Assembly (NCBI RefSeq): GCF_001306035.1
Contig: NZ_LGCM01000014.1
Coordinates: forward strand, 124,501-188,500
Source of the DNA: Levilinea saccharolytica
GTDB lineage: Bacteria; Chloroflexota; Anaerolineae; Anaerolineales; Anaerolineaceae
DNA: 64,000 bases
Direction of reading: 5' to 3'
Shown: piece by piece, positions 1-31,462 of the stretch
Layout of the letters: each line of letters starts with the position of its first letter
Numbering within the stretch: the first letter of the stretch is position 1
Notes under the pieces: generated by a model
Seen by the model: only the letters and a program-made list of their open reading frames with translations
Databases searched by the model: none
What the model was told of the DNA's origin: nothing
Program-made: the position numbers and the translations under genes

Positions 1-31
1 CAATTTTTAGGGTCGGGGTAACCTCAATCAT
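1..31 (-). CDS. arfB: Start of an arfB-type ribosome-rescue peptidyl-tRNA hydrolase gene, running off the left edge
   Basis: Only the first ten codons are visible, reading MIEVTPTLKI on the minus strand. They match the first ten codons of the arfB fragment at 31462 (MIEITPTLSI), and the matching continues upstream into the promoter. ArfB is a small GGQ-motif protein that releases peptides from stalled ribosomes. The two copies are clearly related but not identical, so this is not a simple target-site duplication. I infer that the mobile element carries this 5' end and that it joins the chromosomal remainder of the gene just outside the window. The sequence left of base 1 would settle this. 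Confidence 0.6.
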   Translation of the reverse strand, partial: MIEVTPTLKI

Positions 32-37
32 GGGTTA

Positions 38-43
38 AGTATA
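38..43 (-). promoter_or_regulatory. -10 box of the element-borne arfB start, probably leaderless
   Basis: TATACT lies six bases before the arfB ATG at 31 and just past the stop of the integrase gene. At that distance the transcript would begin at or near the start codon. The chromosomal copy has a related TACCTT at the same distance from its ATG. No Shine-Dalgarno sequence is present in either copy. Confidence 0.45.
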
Positions 44-48
44 TCAGT

Positions 49-1017
49 TCACTCAGAAATGGTCGCCGGAGAGAAACCCTTCGGTACATATTTATAAGTC
101 ACATCAATCCGGGCATGCCCAAGCAATACTGACACACATTTACGTGCCTCGCGCTCATCCATTCCCTGGGCTAGAAAATCCTGGTATTTATTCTGGGCAA
201 AATTAGCCCGCAACCGATGAACCCCGCTGATCTCAATACCAAGGGCTTTGGTCGCATCTCGAACCGTTCGACGGAAACCAGCTCGCCAGGAAGCGCTTGG
301 GGTAAACAGATATTGTTTGGAGTGGTTTAGCTGACTAAGCAAATCGTCTGGGATAGGAACAGGACGATATCGGCCACCTTTGCCAGTGATATGCAGCAGC
401 TTATGTTCTACATCGATGTTCTCGCCTTTCAATCCAGCAATTTCATCTTCCCGTAGCCCACAGCGTAAAGCCAGTTCCGCCGGCAGAGCATAGACAGATT
501 TTTTCGCTTTCAGATGGGAAACCACTCTTTCGGCATCTTCAGGTCTATATCCAAACCTTGGTGAACGCACATCACTATCGTCGCGAAATGCCTTTACCCA
601 ATCACGTAATTCTGGGGTAATCGGGCAAGGCTCTTTCGTCCAGCCGAGTTTGGTACAACCAAGATGAACTTTCTCTAGCGCTGCCAACAATTTGTTCGCC
701 GTCCCAGGTGCCGCATCTGAGTAGTGCTCTTCAAAAGTTGTCATGATGATGTCTTGATCCAGAAGGTTGGCCAGCAAACCCTCATCGGCGATTTCTTCAG
801 CGCATTTGAAGAATAAAGTAGCTGCCTGAAAATAAGTTCGACGGGTGCTGATGCCCAGAATGACCGGTAGGGGTTGGGTTGGATCTCCGCCTGGTCGCAG
901 CGATTTCTTGACAGATGTCACTCCTTGCTCGGCCTGGTACTCTGCAATTTGTTCTTTATTCCAGGTTACTTTGGCCAGGGCATGATTGACCTGGTTGGAT
1001 ATGGATGCCAAAGACAA
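49..1017 (-). CDS. Tyrosine recombinase / phage-type integrase
   Basis: A 322-residue site-specific recombinase, presumably for integration or excision of the surrounding element. The catalytic set is visible in the C-terminal half: Arg in ALRCGLREDEIAGL, Lys in ITGKGGRYR, His-x-x-Arg in GVHRLR, His in LLGHARIDVT and the nucleophile region YKYVP. The N-terminal part is the expected helical SAM-like domain. I start it at TTG 1017, because GGAGG lies six bases upstream; the open frame continues to 1239 but that extension is Arg/Ser-rich and unlike the family. Its 3' end points at the element's left end, 18 bases from the arfB start, so it faces the attachment site, as the serine recombinase does from the other side. 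Confidence 0.88.
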   Translation of the reverse strand: MSLASISNQVNHALAKVTWNKEQIAEYQAEQGVTSVKKSLRPGGDPTQPLPVILGISTRRTYFQAATLFFKCAEEIADEGLLANLLDQDIIMTTFEEHYSDAAPGTANKLLAALEKVHLGCTKLGWTKEPCPITPELRDWVKAFRDDSDVRSPRFGYRPEDAERVVSHLKAKKSVYALPAELALRCGLREDEIAGLKGENIDVEHKLLHITGKGGRYRPVPIPDDLLSQLNHSKQYLFTPSASWRAGFRRTVRDATKALGIEISGVHRLRANFAQNKYQDFLAQGMDEREARKCVSVLLGHARIDVTYKYVPKGFSPATISE

Positions 1018-1397
1018 TTTACACCTCCTCCGACGGCTTTGGATTGCGTTTCCAGCCGTTTCTAGTATTAAGGATTTTTTGTGCCGTTGAGCCTTTCGCC
1101 GAGATGATCTCGACGTACGAACAGGGTTTGCACTTCGCGATGCCTGCGACCCTGGGCGCTCTGCGCGGCATCTTCGGACTGGTGTTGATCTGTCATTTCG
1201 TGACAGACCGGCAAGCGCAGGACTTGCCTTCTTCCCCATGAATAACTCACGTTGAAAATAAATCTCACGATAGGGGAAACCAGCTCACGTTGAGAAACAT
1301 GATTTTGTCTACGAAGAGACAATTTGTACTGTTACTAAACCACAAACCCACGATTTAGTTCAAGTACCCACTTTTCGGGAATTTACATCTTGTATTC
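1018..1397. other. Non-coding gap between integrase and RHH gene, with a 10-base direct repeat
   Basis: No convincing gene is present; the short open frames here are arginine-rich and lack ribosome sites. CTCACGTTGA occurs twice, at 1246-1255 and 1284-1293, with a related CTCACGATA at 1264 between them. The repeats could be recombinase arm sites or regulator sites, but nothing in the sequence decides between these. Confidence 0.35.
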
Positions 1398-24167: not shown

Positions 24168-25259
24168 ATGTCGCCTAAAATTACAGGGCTGAATTGTTTT
24201 CGAAGTGTCATCGCTTGCTTCCAACCTGTGTTTGGACCGGGGGATTTTTACTTTTCCCAATCGACAGAGTCGGCAGAGCTAATCCTATATTGTAAACAGT
24301 GGGGAAATATTGGGAAAATATTTTTTCGAGAAGGTCATCTAGCGGCAAGTCAATTTCGTTTCGAGCCCCCATTCGCAGTCATTCCTGATGAGCCTCTTAA
24401 GTACGAAACCATGCTCCGCGAAGAAGTCCTGGGGCCCAGGGGACGACTTGCCGAACTGATGGGCCAGAAAGATGTTTACCAAGCCATTCTCTCCGATGCG
24501 CTGTTTGAGAAGCGCGTCCAGCGACAGCAGGAATTCAAAGTCTGGCTTTCCAGCAGATTACAAATCTTTGGTTATCACGACCTGCCTTTTGGAGCAGTTG
24601 CGGACGGCTCAAAGAAAATCGATCAGCAGTTCGATTTCTCCATCAAAGGCACGCCGGCGCAGTTCGGGGTCATGCTGCGTCAATTCGCACTGACCTTACG
24701 GAGCAAAGCAAACTACCAACGGCTAGCGTGCCAAATTCTACTTCCAGGCGGACGCAAAGATGCAGGCAGCATTCCACCAGATGCCAACCCCATTGAAGCA
24801 AAGATTTCTCTCGATAAGAATCGCTTATCCATTCACGCGCATATCCTGCCTTCAGCAGGGACCCTTCTACGAATACGCTTGACCGGTGAAAGAACCCTCT
24901 GGGACCTGTGGGATGCGATCCGCGAAGAGCTGGAAAAGTTGGGTTGGTTTTCCTTGCCAGAAATCCCCGAAGTCACTGCTTCTACTACTCCACAAGCTGT
25001 AACCAGTACCGAAGCGCAATCTCAACCAGCAAATCCAACTGCGGAGATCTGGATGACCATCCCGGATGTCGGACCCAACCGCGAGATCTTGCGCCATTGG
25101 CACAAAGGTCTGACCTGTGAACAGATCGCGGTCCGGGTAAGCCTTTCGAGAAAAACAGTCCTCAACCGGATCAATAAGCTGCGAAAAGGTTATGGGGCTG
25201 AAGTAGTACCCTACCGAAAGTCGAATTACATCAAGGATTCCAAGAAGAAGCTCTCTTGA
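24168..25259 (+). CDS. Unknown protein with C-terminal helix-turn-helix
   Basis: A 363-residue protein of no family that I recognise. The C-terminal ~60 residues (REILRHWHKGLTCEQIA, SLSRKTVLNRINKLRKGYG) form a clear LuxR/MarR-like HTH. The middle part (residues about 95-260) is probably a mixed alpha/beta ligand or protein-binding region, and residues about 275-298 are a Thr/Ala/Pro-rich linker. It starts three bases after the brxL stop with no good ribosome site and is followed by a terminator, so it closes the defence operon. It could be a regulator of the operon or the first gene of the element's maintenance region. Confidence 0.55.
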   Translation: MSPKITGLNCFRSVIACFQPVFGPGDFYFSQSTESAELILYCKQWGNIGKIFFREGHLAASQFRFEPPFAVIPDEPLKYETMLREEVLGPRGRLAELMGQKDVYQAILSDALFEKRVQRQQEFKVWLSSRLQIFGYHDLPFGAVADGSKKIDQQFDFSIKGTPAQFGVMLRQFALTLRSKANYQRLACQILLPGGRKDAGSIPPDANPIEAKISLDKNRLSIHAHILPSAGTLLRIRLTGERTLWDLWDAIREELEKLGWFSLPEIPEVTASTTPQAVTSTEAQSQPANPTAEIWMTIPDVGPNREILRHWHKGLTCEQIAVRVSLSRKTVLNRINKLRKGYGAEVVPYRKSNYIKDSKKKLS

Positions 25260-25599: not shown

Positions 25600-25834
25600 G
25601 ATCCTCCAACTTTCACCGGAGGAGCAGGGGAGGTTGTTGGCGCGCGTCTACGCTTACATCCTCAGTGATCAATTTACAGGTACGAAACCCGAAGGCCCCC
25701 GCACGCAGTGCAGGGGGAGAGAGCCAGGCAAGAAATCGGACGAACCTTCCACAAAGAAACGCAAGGTACGAACCACAGGAGACACAGCTGTTTTAGACGC
25801 AGAAACCACCGATAGCCAGGAGCCCAAAGCATGA
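25574..25834 (+). CDS. Small basic hypothetical protein
   Basis: An 86-residue protein. Residues 1-30 are helical (QPAEILQLSPEEQGRLLARV) and the remainder is basic, polar and probably disordered. GTG 25574 is chosen because AGGAGA ends four bases before it; ATG 25583 is the alternative. The stop overlaps the primase-helicase start (ATGA), so it is the middle gene of a tight three-gene set. Function unknown. Confidence 0.5.
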   Translation: MFAMIQPAEILQLSPEEQGRLLARVYAYILSDQFTGTKPEGPRTQCRGREPGKKSDEPSTKKRKVRTTGDTAVLDAETTDSQEPKA

Positions 25835-28488
25835 GCCTCACCGACCTGTCCCTTTCAGACAAACACTTGAAGATGCTTACCGAAGAATCGGGCATCTCGG
25901 AACAGGTGATTCGAGAGCGTGGCTACCGCACGATTACCAGCGAGGGCGACCTGGTTCAATATGGCTTTTCGCCCGCCCAGCGGCGTGTGCCCGGACTGCT
26001 TATCCCTTTGCACACCACAGACGGCAAGGTTGGCTTGCACGTCTACCGTCCCGACAACCCACGCACCTATGAAAATCGCGGCAAACGTGATTCTGACGGC
26101 TTGCGACCGGTTAAAGTGCTCAAGTACGAGATTCCCAAAGATACCGGTGTGCGGGTGGACTGCCCAACCTCCTGCATGAAGAAACTCACAAATCCGAGCA
26201 TTCCGCTGTACATCACCGAAGGGCAGAAGAAAGCCGATTCTTTAGCCACGGCAGGAGCTTGCACCATTGATTTACTCGGCGTCTGGAACTTCAAAGGGCG
26301 CAATGAATTTGGCGCGACAACCATCCTGGCGGATTTCGACTTCGTTGCCTGGGAGAACCGCTCGGTGCGCATCGTTTTCGACTCGGACGTGATGTACAAA
26401 CCTTCGGTGCGCCAGGCGATGGAACGCCTGACGGAAATCCTCCAGCGCAAGGGAGCTACCGTTTCGGCCATCTATCTGCCCAATCATCCCAGCGGGGCCA
26501 AATGGGGTGTGGATGACTGGTTGGCCAGCGGGCATGATCTGAAAGACCTGGAAGCGCTGGCAGAACTCCCCCGCCCCATCCCCCAGGCTGCCCTGCCGAC
26601 CATCGAGTTGTTGGATGAACCTTCGCCCAATATCAAGCGCCCCCTCTGCCTGATTGGGAAATATGCATTCGCTGCGACCTGGCTGCCGGTGCGCACCACC
26701 CAGCGCGAAGGGTTGGACAAGGATGGCAACCTGATCGTCCACAACCCGCCCCTGGTCGAGGAAAAGACCTGCCTGTTCATCATTCGCAGCGACCGGCGCG
26801 TTTTCGCTGAAGTCAGCGACGGCCAAAGCACACGCCCGATGAGTGAACTGGGGATGAACGCGATCTTCCCCGAAATCATCCCGGTCGAGAAACGCTGGTC
26901 TACGCGCGGCGTCCGCGCTTACGTTCAAGGCAAAATCCCTGACCCGATCGACACCTTCCAGCAAGTCGTGGATGTGGTCAATCGCTTCCTGGATTTCGAT
27001 CATTCGTTGGGTGACCAGCAGGCCATGGCCGAATTGGTTGCCTGCTACATCATGGCGACCTACTTATTGGATGCATTCAATGTGATCGGGTTTCTCTGGC
27101 CAAACGGGGGAGCCGGATCAGGAAAGACTAACCTGCTAATCGTGGTGACCGAAATGGCTTACCTGGGCCAGCTTATCCTGGCCGGGGGAAGCTTCGCCAG
27201 CCTGCGCGACCTGGCGGATTATGGCGCCACCCTGGCTTTCGACGACGCCGAGAACCTGGCTGACCCGAAAAAGACCGACCCGGATAAACGCGCATTGCTG
27301 CTGGCCGGCAACCGGCGCGGTTCGACCATACCGCTGAAAGAACCGGATGGGCCCGGAAAATGGAAGCTGCGCCACGTGAACGCCTACAGCCCGCGCTTGT
27401 TTTCCGGGATCAACATACCCGATCCCGTTCTGGCATCGCGCACCATCGTCATTCCCCTCATCCGCACCGCCGACCGCGACAAGGCCAATTTCGATCCCCT
27501 GGATCACACCTTCTGGCCACACGACCGCCGCGCACTGGTCGATGATCTGTGGGCCGTGGGTCTGGCAAATTTGCCCTTGCTGCACGATTTTGAAACTCAA
27601 GTCGCCCAAAATGCACGCCTCCGAGGGCGCAATCTTCAGCCCTGGAAAGCGATCCTCTCCGTTGCCGCCTGGTTGGACAGTCTTGATCAGCAGCACCGCT
27701 TGCAGCACTCTTACACAGTTCGCAACCAGGGCCAGGATCAGGTGGTAATCAGTGGCCTCTGGCAGCGATTGGAGGAGATGTCCTGGCGCTACCAGCAGGA
27801 GGAGAGCGCCGACCAGCAATCGGGAGACATCGTTTTACTGGTGCTGCAGGGGCTGTGTAAGCTGGCAGGTGACAAGAGTGACATTAAGGACAACAGTGAC
27901 ATTCATTCAACCGTATGGACGTTTACGACATCTCAGATCAGCGAAGCTGCCCAACACATCGCCGAGCAAACCGAAGCCGATATCGACACGGAGAAAATCA
28001 CTTCACGGAAGGTGGGGCGACTGCTGGGAAAGCTCAGGCTGCGCAAGGCGCGTGAAGCCGGCAAAGGTACGCGCATGTGGCAGGTCACCCTCGCCGATCT
28101 AAAACGCTGGGCAGCCGTTTACAACATCCAACTGCCGAAAGAGCTGGGGCAAGAAAATAATGTCACTCATGTCACTGATGGCCAAACGTCACAAGAGACT
28201 GAAGAGCCCTGGTTGAACTGTGAAATCGCCATCCGCCTGCCCGCGGACAGCAAAATGCCCGCGATTGGCGGCTGCTGGCGCAGGCTGCCGGATGGAAGAA
28301 TCGAGGCCGGTTACAACCCGGAGCAGCTGGCTATGGCGCTGTCGATTTTCCTGGATAGGAATGTCGGGGCCGAGAAAATCAGCGGCTCGCCCATACCACA
28401 GTTGAGAGAACGATTGACGGCGGTTACAGATGGGGAGGTCATCCATATCCATCTACCGGAGAAATCCGAGGAAAGCAAAGATGGTTGA
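25831..28488 (+). CDS. DUF3854 Toprim primase / P-loop helicase of a mobile element
   Basis: An 885-residue protein. The N-terminal third is a DUF3854 Toprim domain with LYITEGQKKADSL (about residues 126-138), IVFDSDV (about 181) and WGVDDWLASG. The middle has a P-loop WPNGGAGSGKTN (about 425) and a Walker B-like TLAFDDAENL, as in phage- and plasmid-type replicative helicases. The C-terminal part includes a helical, possibly winged-helix segment near residues 690-760. It likely starts replication of the excised element. It lies far from the recombinases but upstream of them and on the same strand as the serine recombinase. Confidence 0.72.
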   Translation: MSLTDLSLSDKHLKMLTEESGISEQVIRERGYRTITSEGDLVQYGFSPAQRRVPGLLIPLHTTDGKVGLHVYRPDNPRTYENRGKRDSDGLRPVKVLKYEIPKDTGVRVDCPTSCMKKLTNPSIPLYITEGQKKADSLATAGACTIDLLGVWNFKGRNEFGATTILADFDFVAWENRSVRIVFDSDVMYKPSVRQAMERLTEILQRKGATVSAIYLPNHPSGAKWGVDDWLASGHDLKDLEALAELPRPIPQAALPTIELLDEPSPNIKRPLCLIGKYAFAATWLPVRTTQREGLDKDGNLIVHNPPLVEEKTCLFIIRSDRRVFAEVSDGQSTRPMSELGMNAIFPEIIPVEKRWSTRGVRAYVQGKIPDPIDTFQQVVDVVNRFLDFDHSLGDQQAMAELVACYIMATYLLDAFNVIGFLWPNGGAGSGKTNLLIVVTEMAYLGQLILAGGSFASLRDLADYGATLAFDDAENLADPKKTDPDKRALLLAGNRRGSTIPLKEPDGPGKWKLRHVNAYSPRLFSGINIPDPVLASRTIVIPLIRTADRDKANFDPLDHTFWPHDRRALVDDLWAVGLANLPLLHDFETQVAQNARLRGRNLQPWKAILSVAAWLDSLDQQHRLQHSYTVRNQGQDQVVISGLWQRLEEMSWRYQQEESADQQSGDIVLLVLQGLCKLAGDKSDIKDNSDIHSTVWTFTTSQISEAAQHIAEQTEADIDTEKITSRKVGRLLGKLRLRKAREAGKGTRMWQVTLADLKRWAAVYNIQLPKELGQENNVTHVTDGQTSQETEEPWLNCEIAIRLPADSKMPAIGGCWRRLPDGRIEAGYNPEQLAMALSIFLDRNVGAEKISGSPIPQLRERLTAVTDGEVIHIHLPEKSEESKDG

Positions 28489-28717
28489 CGCGATTATCCA
28501 TGACCCGTATATAGCACTGGCCCTGGCTGTGATCTACCATGCCGTTCTGGATCTGGACAGCGATAACCCGGCTCGCATGGCCGAAGCCCGAGCATGGCTG
28601 CAGTTTGTCGGGCTGAATTGGTGCGAACTGCTGGGTGTTTCCGAGGAGGAGTTGGAAACGTGGGTGGCAGGCGGTTTTGCTCTGCCGCCCAGCGCCCATC
28701 GCAACTGGCGCTATTGA
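28481..28717 (+). CDS. Small acidic hypothetical protein
   Basis: A 78-residue acidic, Trp-rich protein (LALAVIYHAVLDLDSDNPAR, ARAWLQFVGLNWCELL). ATG 28481 has GAGGAAAG upstream and overlaps the primase-helicase stop by eight bases, so it belongs to that operon. It resembles small element proteins often found beside replication genes, but I cannot name a family. Confidence 0.55.
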   Translation: MVDAIIHDPYIALALAVIYHAVLDLDSDNPARMAEARAWLQFVGLNWCELLGVSEEELETWVAGGFALPPSAHRNWRY

Positions 28718-28815: not shown

Positions 28816-28956
28816 GGTTCGTGCAGGTGTAGCGAGCACCTACACGAACCTGACCCCAACCACCGGAATTGGCGGCGGCAGGGGCTGATCTCATTATAGC
28901 TGATCAGCCAGGATTCGCCCTCGGTGGGGACCATTTGCCGGGGGCTTTTTGTTGCC
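28816..28956 (+). ncRNA. Structured leader RNA upstream of the wHTH-membrane and recombinase genes
   Basis: A long hairpin pairs 28816-28829 with 28837-28850 (13 of 14 pairs, 7-base loop TAGCGAG). It is followed by GCTGATC repeats at about 28886-28912 and by a GGGGGC/GCCCCC hairpin at about 28937-28956 with a T-rich loop. The leader is about 180 bases long, and the ribosome site comes only after the last hairpin. It could be an attenuator, an antisense-type control RNA, or a single-strand or transfer origin. No T-tract ends the long stem, so it is not a plain terminator. Confidence 0.4.
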
Positions 28957-28980
28957 CCCTACTTATTAAGGAGGCTTATC

Positions 28981-29766
28981 TTGGCTGATCAATCTTTTCT
29001 TATTCGATTCCGGGAGGCCCTCTCGGAAATTGAGACCAATCTTACTGATGGCATTGCCGCCATCGGTCCCTGGATCACTCCCATCCCCAGCGCCGTGCTG
29101 GTGGCCAATGCCACAGTCAAAGACTTGCATTGGAGCGCTGAGTTAGCTTGGGTCGCTGCTGCGATCATCGAGAGCCTGGGCCTAACTACCGTAAGTACCA
29201 GCCTGCTGCTTTGGGAGTACAACGCAGACAAAAGGAAAACGGATCCAGATGCGCCTTTTTTGTTGGCAGCTTCTTTAGTCGGTGTTTACCTGGTTTCCAC
29301 CATTGGTTTGACCGTGCTGTTGGATATTTTCCCAGATCTGGCCCGTTACGCGCCGGCACTCTTTCCAATTCTGGCGCTGGTCGGTGCCGTCAATCTGGCA
29401 TTGCGTTCTGGACATCGCCGGCGTCTGGCAGGTATTACCCAAGAGCGTGCAGATCGAAAAGCGGAACGTCAAGCTGTTCGTCCACCAGTGGGGAATCTGA
29501 ATGACTTACTTGCGTCCAATGCAACGTCTATAACTGTCAATCCAGACAGTTCGTTAGTCAAAGCGCGTCAAGCCAGGGCAGCTATTCAGGGTAACCGAAT
29601 GGACAATCTTTTGACACTCTATCGTGACAATCCAACGATTGGGGTGACAGATGCTGCTCGTACATTGAACATGTCCAGGCAGACGGTTTACTCCTACCTG
29701 GATCGTCTTGAAAATGATGGGCGCATTCGGCGCAATGGACATGGTGTTGAGATCATTAAGGGTTAG
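28981..29766 (+). CDS. Membrane protein with C-terminal winged-helix DNA-binding domain
   Basis: A 261-residue protein. It has hydrophobic segments at about residues 55-75 (AELAWVAAAIIESLGL region), 92-112 and 120-138, then a basic linker and a C-terminal wHTH at about 200-258 (GVTDAARTLNMSRQTVYSYL). TTG 28981 follows GGAGG by six bases; the open frame reaches upstream to 28924, but no ribosome site supports that. It ends directly against the recombinase gene. A membrane-anchored regulator controlling recombinase expression is one reading; a partition or replication role is another. Confidence 0.6.
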   Translation: MADQSFLIRFREALSEIETNLTDGIAAIGPWITPIPSAVLVANATVKDLHWSAELAWVAAAIIESLGLTTVSTSLLLWEYNADKRKTDPDAPFLLAASLVGVYLVSTIGLTVLLDIFPDLARYAPALFPILALVGAVNLALRSGHRRRLAGITQERADRKAERQAVRPPVGNLNDLLASNATSITVNPDSSLVKARQARAAIQGNRMDNLLTLYRDNPTIGVTDAARTLNMSRQTVYSYLDRLENDGRIRRNGHGVEIIKG

Positions 29767-29775
29767 GTGATAATT

Positions 29776-31407
29776 ATGGCTACCAAACGTGCGATTATTT
29801 ACTCTCGGGTTTCTACGGACGATCAGCGATCCAACTTCAGCATTCCCACCCAAATTGCGGAATGCGTCAAGTATTGTCAAAATAACGGTTATACCCTGGT
29901 GGGGAATGCGTTCGTGGACAAGCAAAGTGGATTGGATGTCGAGAAAAATCCCAATTCAATTCCCGCTTACGTAGATGATTATTCCTCCCGTGAAATGAAC
30001 CGTCCCAGTCTGGATGCCGCGTTGACCTATCTCGAAGATTATGGCTTTGATGTTGTTGTGGTCCATTCGATCGATCGGTTAGCCCGCGACCCCTATATCC
30101 GCCAAACCTTGGAGAAGGAATTCTTCCGGCGGGGAGCCAAAGTCGAATTTGCGCTCGGAAATTATGACGACTCACCCGAAGGCGAAGTGCGCAAAGATAT
30201 GGATGCCACTTTTGCCAAATGGGAAAATGCCAAACGTGTCGAGCGCTGCAATCGTGGGAAACGTGGTAAAGCCGAAAAGGGTCTGTATGTTGGTGGACGA
30301 ACACCGTATGGTTACATATTGGATGCGAAGGGAATGGGTGGACTGTCTATTCATCCTGAGCAAGCCGAGGTCGTTCGATTGATCTTCTCGCTTTATGGCG
30401 AGGAGAACTACTCTATGCACAGGATTCGTGTAGAGCTAGAAAACCGTAGTATTCCTTCCTACACGGGAAAACCAAACTGGCACTTATCCGCCATACGAAA
30501 CATCCTGACCAATACCGCTTATAAAGGGTATGTCCATTACAACAAATCGGTATGCCGGAGTAATTCGGATCGAAAACCACGTGAAAAACGTGAATGGATT
30601 AAGATTGAAATTGCCCCTCTGATAGATGTGCAATTATTTAACCTCGTTCAAATGAGGATCAAGGATCATCGCGAAGCGCTCCGCCGCCAGCCCCAACACT
30701 TTTATCTTTTATCTGGGATGATCCGTTGTATGGAATGTGAGAAACCTTACAGGGCCAATTTCCAAAAGGATCGTCCAAAGGAGCATCGAAAAGCTCATCG
30801 ATCCTATCGCCATCGCAGAATTGAAGGCCAGTGTATGGATCGGGAAATAACAGCAGTACGTCTGGAAGAACGTGTTTGGGAAGCCGTAAAGGAAATGCTG
30901 GTCGATACAGAGGTTCTGAGACAGGCTTATTACCAGGCTCAACAATTGGATGTGGAAAATCGCTCGCGCTCGCGCATCCTACTCGAAGGGTATTATCGGT
31001 CAGCCGGTAAACTAGAACAACAGTTAACCAATCTGACCCGCGCCTACACGGATCCAGACATCCAGATGACAAAAACGGAATATCTCGCCCAAAGGGTGCA
31101 GCTAGACCGGGATCTTACCGAAGTCCGCGCGAAAATTGAGGAGATAGAGGCCGTACCCACCGCTGTACCAACTCAGAGGCAGTTTGAAGATTTAGAAGGT
31201 TTTGCCCAGAAAGTAAGGGAACGGATTGCAAATGAGGATTGGGACCCTACACCAGAGAGCAAGCGTCAGGTGCTGGAGCTGTTGCATGCCAAGGTTGTTC
31301 TCTCAAAAGATGGCTCCGGGAAGGTGACCGGGTGGTTTGGAGAAACGTCAGGGTTTTCGTACACACGCCGTTCACATTTTGGCCGCCCGGGCCGGAAGAA
31401 CGAATGA
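29776..31407 (+). CDS. Large serine recombinase, 3' end supplied by target-gene DNA
   Basis: A 543-residue integrase. The resolvase domain has the catalytic Ser in AIIYSRVSTDDQ and the IDRLARD motif. It is followed by a recombinase domain (GGRTPYGYI, HRIRVELENRSIPS), a zinc ribbon (MIRCMECEKPYRANF, GQCMDREI) and a coiled coil at about 395-470. ATG 29776 has AGGTG six bases upstream; GTG 29767 is the alternative. The last ~11 codons (HFGRPGRKNE) are read from the antisense strand of the arfB 5' fragment, so the gene spans the attachment junction. This fits an integrase whose attP lies at its own 3' end. Confidence 0.9.
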   Translation: MATKRAIIYSRVSTDDQRSNFSIPTQIAECVKYCQNNGYTLVGNAFVDKQSGLDVEKNPNSIPAYVDDYSSREMNRPSLDAALTYLEDYGFDVVVVHSIDRLARDPYIRQTLEKEFFRRGAKVEFALGNYDDSPEGEVRKDMDATFAKWENAKRVERCNRGKRGKAEKGLYVGGRTPYGYILDAKGMGGLSIHPEQAEVVRLIFSLYGEENYSMHRIRVELENRSIPSYTGKPNWHLSAIRNILTNTAYKGYVHYNKSVCRSNSDRKPREKREWIKIEIAPLIDVQLFNLVQMRIKDHREALRRQPQHFYLLSGMIRCMECEKPYRANFQKDRPKEHRKAHRSYRHRRIEGQCMDREITAVRLEERVWEAVKEMLVDTEVLRQAYYQAQQLDVENRSRSRILLEGYYRSAGKLEQQLTNLTRAYTDPDIQMTKTEYLAQRVQLDRDLTEVRAKIEEIEAVPTAVPTQRQFEDLEGFAQKVRERIANEDWDPTPESKRQVLELLHAKVVLSKDGSGKVTGWFGETSGFSYTRRSHFGRPGRKNE

Positions 31408-31462
31408 ACTCAAATTGGATCTCGCTCTCAGGGATAGAAAGGGTAGGGGTAATCTCGATCAT
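31247..31462 (-). pseudogene. arfB: arfB 5' fragment split by the element
   Basis: From ATG 31462 the frame encodes the ArfB N-terminus (PESEIQFEFIRSSGPGGQN), with the GGQ motif that hydrolyses peptidyl-tRNA on stalled ribosomes. After about codon 31 the sequence is element DNA and the frame stops at 31247 with unrelated residues. The rest of the domain and the basic C-terminal tail that reads the empty mRNA channel are missing, so this copy cannot work. It should be the original chromosomal 5' end. A replacement start lies at the left window edge. Confidence 0.82.
31370..31382. other. Right attachment junction of the element, at the GGQ motif of arfB
   Basis: To the right of about 31,370 the minus strand reads arfB codons up to GPGGQNVN; to the left the frame continues into recombinase-antisense sequence (GVCTKTL) that does not resemble ArfB, where KVATAV or similar is expected. 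The crossover therefore lies at or just left of the Asn-Val-Asn codons. The matching left junction is outside the window, so the exact core cannot be read. Confidence 0.6.

Follow-up and report, generated by a model that had tools for sequence, protein, structure and literature searches.

The arfB gene of Levilinea saccharolytica was found to be split by an inserted element of ∼31.85 kb (C45:124023 to C45:155871), which carries a complete arfB of its own. The window analysed was 64,000 nt long (G000:C45:124501-188500, from a draft genome of 4.23 Mb in 65 contigs), and the left junction of the element, at G000:C45:124023, is outside it. We consider it very probable that the element is a site-specific, probably mobile defence island, whose serine recombinase splits arfB at the codons for GGQNVN and whose own complete arfB would compensate for this.

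A PF00472 family search detected three arfB pieces on the minus strand of C45: a match at 124127-124510 that crosses the window edge, a partial match at 123734-124033 just left of it, and the right fragment at 155855-155941. In gene order, the 5' fragment lies at the right, followed by a complete ArfB of 141 aa and, furthest left, by a 3' remnant. The complete gene (L002:9606-10031, equal to G000:C45:124106-124531, minus strand) encodes GGQNVN and a basic tail. Its first ten codons, MIEVTPTLKI, occupy positions 1-31 of the window, and the rest lies to the left, down to L002:9606. As the initial annotation had described, these codons are preceded on the minus strand by TATACT (43-38), a probable –10 box, six bases and ATG (31-29). 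The stranded host 5' fragment (31371-31462, minus strand) has 31 codons, MIEITPTLSIPESEIQFEFIRSSGPGGQNVN, at which the arfB homology ends; upstream of its ATG (31462-31460) the minus strand reads TACCTT (31474-31469) and six bases. The same layout had been claimed for this end: the six-base spacing was the same, as were the residues at 8 of 10 codons, but TACCTT, a weak –10-like hexamer, matched only loosely. With ArfB family matches at both places, the resemblance of the two ends exceeds chance. The host 3' remnant (L002:9189-9525, minus strand) lies ∼80 bp left of the element arfB; it lacks GGQ, begins with ...MNKVATAVQLRYD and finishes in a normal tail. Directly left of it, a gene of restriction-endonuclease-like look was observed (L002:8064-9095), which was absent from G068, a genome of the same genus, and near which inverted repeats containing GATAATACC were found.

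The empty site was provided by G068, an element-free relative with a single intact arfB, such as the initial annotation had proposed to look for. The right fragment was 91% identical to this gene up to ...AATGTGAAC, and its 31 residues were 96.8% identical to the intact ArfB; the left remnant was 96% identical, starting at TGAACAAGG. In this comparison the two host pieces overlapped by 5 bp, TGAAC, no sequence was lost, and the 5' fragment at 31371-31462 continued exactly into the 3' remnant. The anatomy of the insertion is secure, and the initial proposal was borne out in three respects: arfB is split by an integrated element, its original 5' end has been left stranded at the right together with the promoter (TACCTT), and the host retains a differently promoted arfB at the left junction.

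A large serine recombinase of 546 aa (29767-31407, plus strand; PF00239, PF07508, PF13408) adjoins the right end of the element. With its resolvase, recombinase and zinc-ribbon domains and its position at the element end, it is of the kind expected in an integrative element and is likely the integrase. Its best NCBIfam match was CcrB, at 98 bits far under the cut-off of 900. In the integrated form, its final 11 residues and stop are read from the antisense strand of the host arfB; in the circular form, the frame would continue into element sequence and give a longer, element-encoded tail. In G007, which holds a closely similar recombinase, the frame stops at the junction, implying that a host-encoded tail is probably not required. 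The element-side sequence of the right junction (31358-31373, plus strand) was identical in G007. The right junction there reads TCAA|CGGCG and the intact arfB TCAA|TAAAG, which places the crossover at AA. The crossover dinucleotide is thus most likely TT/AA at 31371-31372, within the Asn codon of GGQNVN, and GTTTTCGTACACACGCCGTTCATGCCCTGGAGGACTGCCGGTACAC is the predicted joined attachment site. Recoding of the element arfB as a means of avoiding its own recombinase was also considered; the gene retains the AA core and similar arms of the crossover region.

At the left end, a tyrosine recombinase of 396 aa (49-1239, minus strand; PF00589, E=1.4e-11) is encoded directly upstream of the element arfB. 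Proteins 77-85% identical to it were found at the left ends of sister elements, and Ornatilinea apprima also has a relative. This recombinase may have another role, and it could contribute to mobility. No relatives of either the serine or the tyrosine recombinase were found in IMG/VR. More distant recombinase relatives (34-49% identical) at L061, L062 and L081-L085 were tried as arfB elements and rejected, because all were without arfB; most of these loci were in a comM/YifB-type gene. At L061, L062 and L081-L084, the relatives lay in this AAA ATPase gene at or near the Walker A codons, which likewise encode a very conserved motif.

The insertion recurred in other hosts. Among 147 family genomes, the element-side left 28-mer was found exactly in G000 and in G070, which belongs to another genus, and otherwise not at ≤3 mismatches. 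G070 repeats the order of host 3' remnant, complete arfB and tyrosine recombinase; a recombinase of the arfB-element type was not found in its assembly. In G007, from a third genus, an arfB 5' fragment adjoins a serine recombinase of 97% identity, and the right 27-mer on the element side is identical. G120 carries the tyrosine recombinase with a truncated, degenerate element arfB. Only in G000 were both junctions of a single insertion seen; G070 showed the left one and G007 the right one. A precise empty site and insertions at the same position in other hosts are what is expected of a site-specific integrative element. G007 holds both a split and an intact arfB, which share 128 bp up to the crossover, and may represent a mixed population. 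The intact copy is located at a contig end, adjoining a repeat present at many contig ends. It was considered as the left end of the G007 element and rejected, since the 127 bp upstream are this repeat and the element-side left sequence is absent. Broken or duplicated arfB genes were also observed at L040, L042, L043/L078 and L044 (in G139, G101, G120 and G117) with no matching serine recombinase nearby, and arfB may be a wider recombination hotspot.

The element backbone was found to recur at another target gene, mvaD. It comprises 24168-25259, a DUF3854 protein, 28430-28717 and a winged-HTH protein, and is present in G070, G101 and G139. The DUF3854 protein (885 aa, 25831-28488, plus strand; PF12965), primase/helicase-like by inspection, was 77-91% identical over its full length in L069/L070/L071. 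The winged-HTH protein (28924-29766, plus strand; PF13412), directly upstream of the serine recombinase, was 71-92% identical in the sister elements with a different recombinase. Their serine recombinase was only 26-30% identical to that of the arfB element, and its 3' end overlaps the mvaD start. At the sister loci (L069, L070, L071, L075, L077 and L079), the insertion lies in the first mvaD codons and the 5' end is rebuilt. In G139 both ends are on one contig: the stranded mvaD start, MSNYTATAVACPNIAF, is at 256061, adjoined by the tyrosine recombinase and with mvaD sequence lost thereafter, and the rebuilt start, MSTSTATAVSHPNIALIKYWGN, is at 337736, within the 3' end of the recombinase gene. 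Similar mvaD starts were found next to the tyrosine recombinase in L079 and L075. Related elements therefore restore the 5' end at mvaD and supply the whole gene at arfB. Length may be the reason for the two strategies, as the mvaD crossover is at most ∼16 codons from the start and that of arfB at codon 31.

The element ArfB scored 174.2 bits against the equivalog NF006718 (cut-off 100), which assigns it to ArfB, and it aligned nearly end to end with the solved E. coli ArfB/YaeJ, including GGQNVN and the Lys/Arg-rich C-terminal tail. Both the element and the host gene encode ordinary ArfB-type peptidyl-tRNA hydrolases with GGQ, of the ArfB (YaeJ)/ICT1 family. The element arfBs of G070 and G120 were 87-89% identical to that of G000, across three genera, whereas the G000 element arfB was only 54% identical to the host 3' remnant next to it. 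GC3 was lower in the element arfB (0.57) than in the host remnant (0.87). In a tree of 36 ArfB sequences, host arfBs paired with those of congeners (G000/G068, G070 remnant/G069 and G120/G117, each 100/99), and the element arfBs stood apart from the copies of their own hosts, showing an ancestry separate from that of the host gene. The element copies did not form a well-supported clade of their own (81/30) and may have more than one origin. In phage and plasmid records, all ArfB matches were below 60% identity, and the plasmid ones listed were mostly from very large replicons.

Is the element arfB kept for repair of the target, or is it either an ordinary passenger or left over from an earlier insertion? 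The second possibility is unlikely in our judgement. It is favoured by the presence of tmRNA and SmpB in the host, beside which ArfB probably serves as a backup; the insertion might then be survived with no replacement, loss of ArfB might be tolerable, and the gene might be kept for some reason other than rescue. The further arfB rearrangements in G101, G117, G120 and G139 would also fit an arfB that is a general hotspot. However, arfB was found beside the tyrosine recombinase only at arfB-type left ends (G000, G070 and, degenerate, G120), and was absent from the mvaD-type left ends of L075, L077 and L079. Moreover, the element arfB is intact in G000 and G070, and dN/dS values between element copies were 0.155, 0.07 and 0.044, which indicates selection for function. 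Purifying selection together with the exact association with the arfB site argues that the element arfB is kept for use. Compensation by the element copy is likely: since the island carries a complete arfB, one full-length ArfB is still encoded in the cell once the island has integrated, and the insertion probably costs the host little. We infer that the element arfB is expressed and that the island is mobile at present.

A different form of repair had been put forward in the initial annotation, in which the element provides a promoter and N-terminal codons that are fused to the host 3' end, as at prfC (SXT) and dusA. This mechanism does exist in the family, in the mvaD sister elements (G139, starts at 256061 and 337736), but at arfB it is highly improbable. 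The DNA left of base 1 does continue through GGQ and a basic tail, as had been expected; it does so as a complete second arfB and not as the host 3' end. This is part of what the initial annotation itself had named as evidence against its reading. No element codons run on in frame into the host 3' end, which is a separate remnant, the complete element gene with its 54% identity to that remnant lying in between. Nor did the idea that the element had made a new leaderless promoter as a mimic hold up. An exact TATACT-N6-ATG was found upstream of 21 of the 39 arfB starts examined in the family (the conservation was noted at L009-L038, L040, L044 and positions 29-43 of the window), whereas TATACT at 5-8 nt spacing occurred at ∼0.1% of random positions. 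The layout is thus a usual property of arfB genes and not an element-made copy, and its conservation suggests leaderless arfB transcripts in the family. In the genus, the host arfB hexamer was weak (TACCTT in G000, CACCTT in G068).

That no mobile element is involved, and that the arrangement arose by gene duplication or as a chimera of the assembly, is barely credible, even though the host genome is a 65-contig draft with an estimated contamination of 4.94%: each of the two junctions recurs exactly in an independent genome from another genus, G068 gives an exact empty site, and the arfBs of element and host differ in ancestry.

Between the two ends, the island carries defence cargo (4139-24164, plus strand; Pfam and PADLOC matches): an OLD-like AAA/TOPRIM ATPase, a HEC-01A/HEC-01B pair, a TIR-like protein, 8xMP, and the BREX-type genes for a BrxC-like protein, a PglX-like methyltransferase, PglZ and BrxL. 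No relaxase or type IV secretion genes were found among the element ORFs scanned with Pfam, and the island is thus not classed as an integrative conjugative element.

For mobile elements, mending the gene at the insertion site is established both for tRNA genes and for protein genes, in the latter at the 3' or the 5' end. Among the closest parallels are the SXT/R391 ICE in prfC and dusA islands such as IMEVchUSA3, in which a conserved translation-related gene is entered and a version is kept under an element promoter (PMC8409611; for prfC also PMC2791158). In those systems a new N-terminus is fused to the host 3' end (in SXT via a tyrosine recombinase), whereas for the arfB island the cut is probably made at the catalytic motif by a serine recombinase, and a complete second gene is brought along. 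The Dehalococcoides ssrA islands (DsiB) have a CcrB-like serine recombinase and restore ssrA (PMC3146451). They resemble the arfB island in the phylum, in the 3' end of the CcrB-like recombinase gene running antisense over the target, and in the ribosome-rescue target (tmRNA there). In them ssrA is kept, with its 3' end repeated directly over 20 bp, whereas at arfB a protein gene is split in mid-coding sequence and replaced whole. A likeness to SCCmec (CcrAB, rlmH) was also seen, in the CcrB-related large serine recombinase, encoded at the end of the element close to a protein of probable replication type, but the CcrB match far under the cut-off and the target arfB do not allow assignment to the SCC cassettes. 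SCC targets the 3' end of rlmH, where no replacement gene is needed. Restoring the target by supplying the whole gene is a new form of such repair; in the part of the literature searched, no earlier description was found of a mobile element with a replacement copy of arfB or of another protein target.

In the mechanism that we propose, the large serine recombinase would insert the island into arfB at the GGQNVN codons, leaving two dead host pieces, the 5' one at the right and the 3' one at the left, and the complete arfB of the island would adjoin the attachment site under the usual leaderless promoter of the family. A further reading is more tentative, and we give it slightly less than an even chance: that nearly invariant catalytic codons are targeted, that the complete replacement gene buys tolerance, that both travel as one cassette and that the host becomes dependent. 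Targeting such codons of a conserved gene would widen the host range. The recombinase and the replacement gene would flank the attachment site of the circle and be exchanged as one cassette, either the arfB recombinase with a whole arfB or its mvaD counterpart with a mimic of the mvaD 5' end. With the decay of the host arfB pieces, the host would come to depend on the island.

An element that destroys a gene at its active-site codons but brings a complete foreign orthologue would represent a solution of its own. Since the same backbone occurs with end-repair at mvaD, the two strategies become directly comparable. With its very conserved target codons, the arfB recombinase may also be of use for Chloroflexota genetics. 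By this solution, integration becomes gene replacement, which would provide a route for the horizontal replacement of a translation-quality gene.
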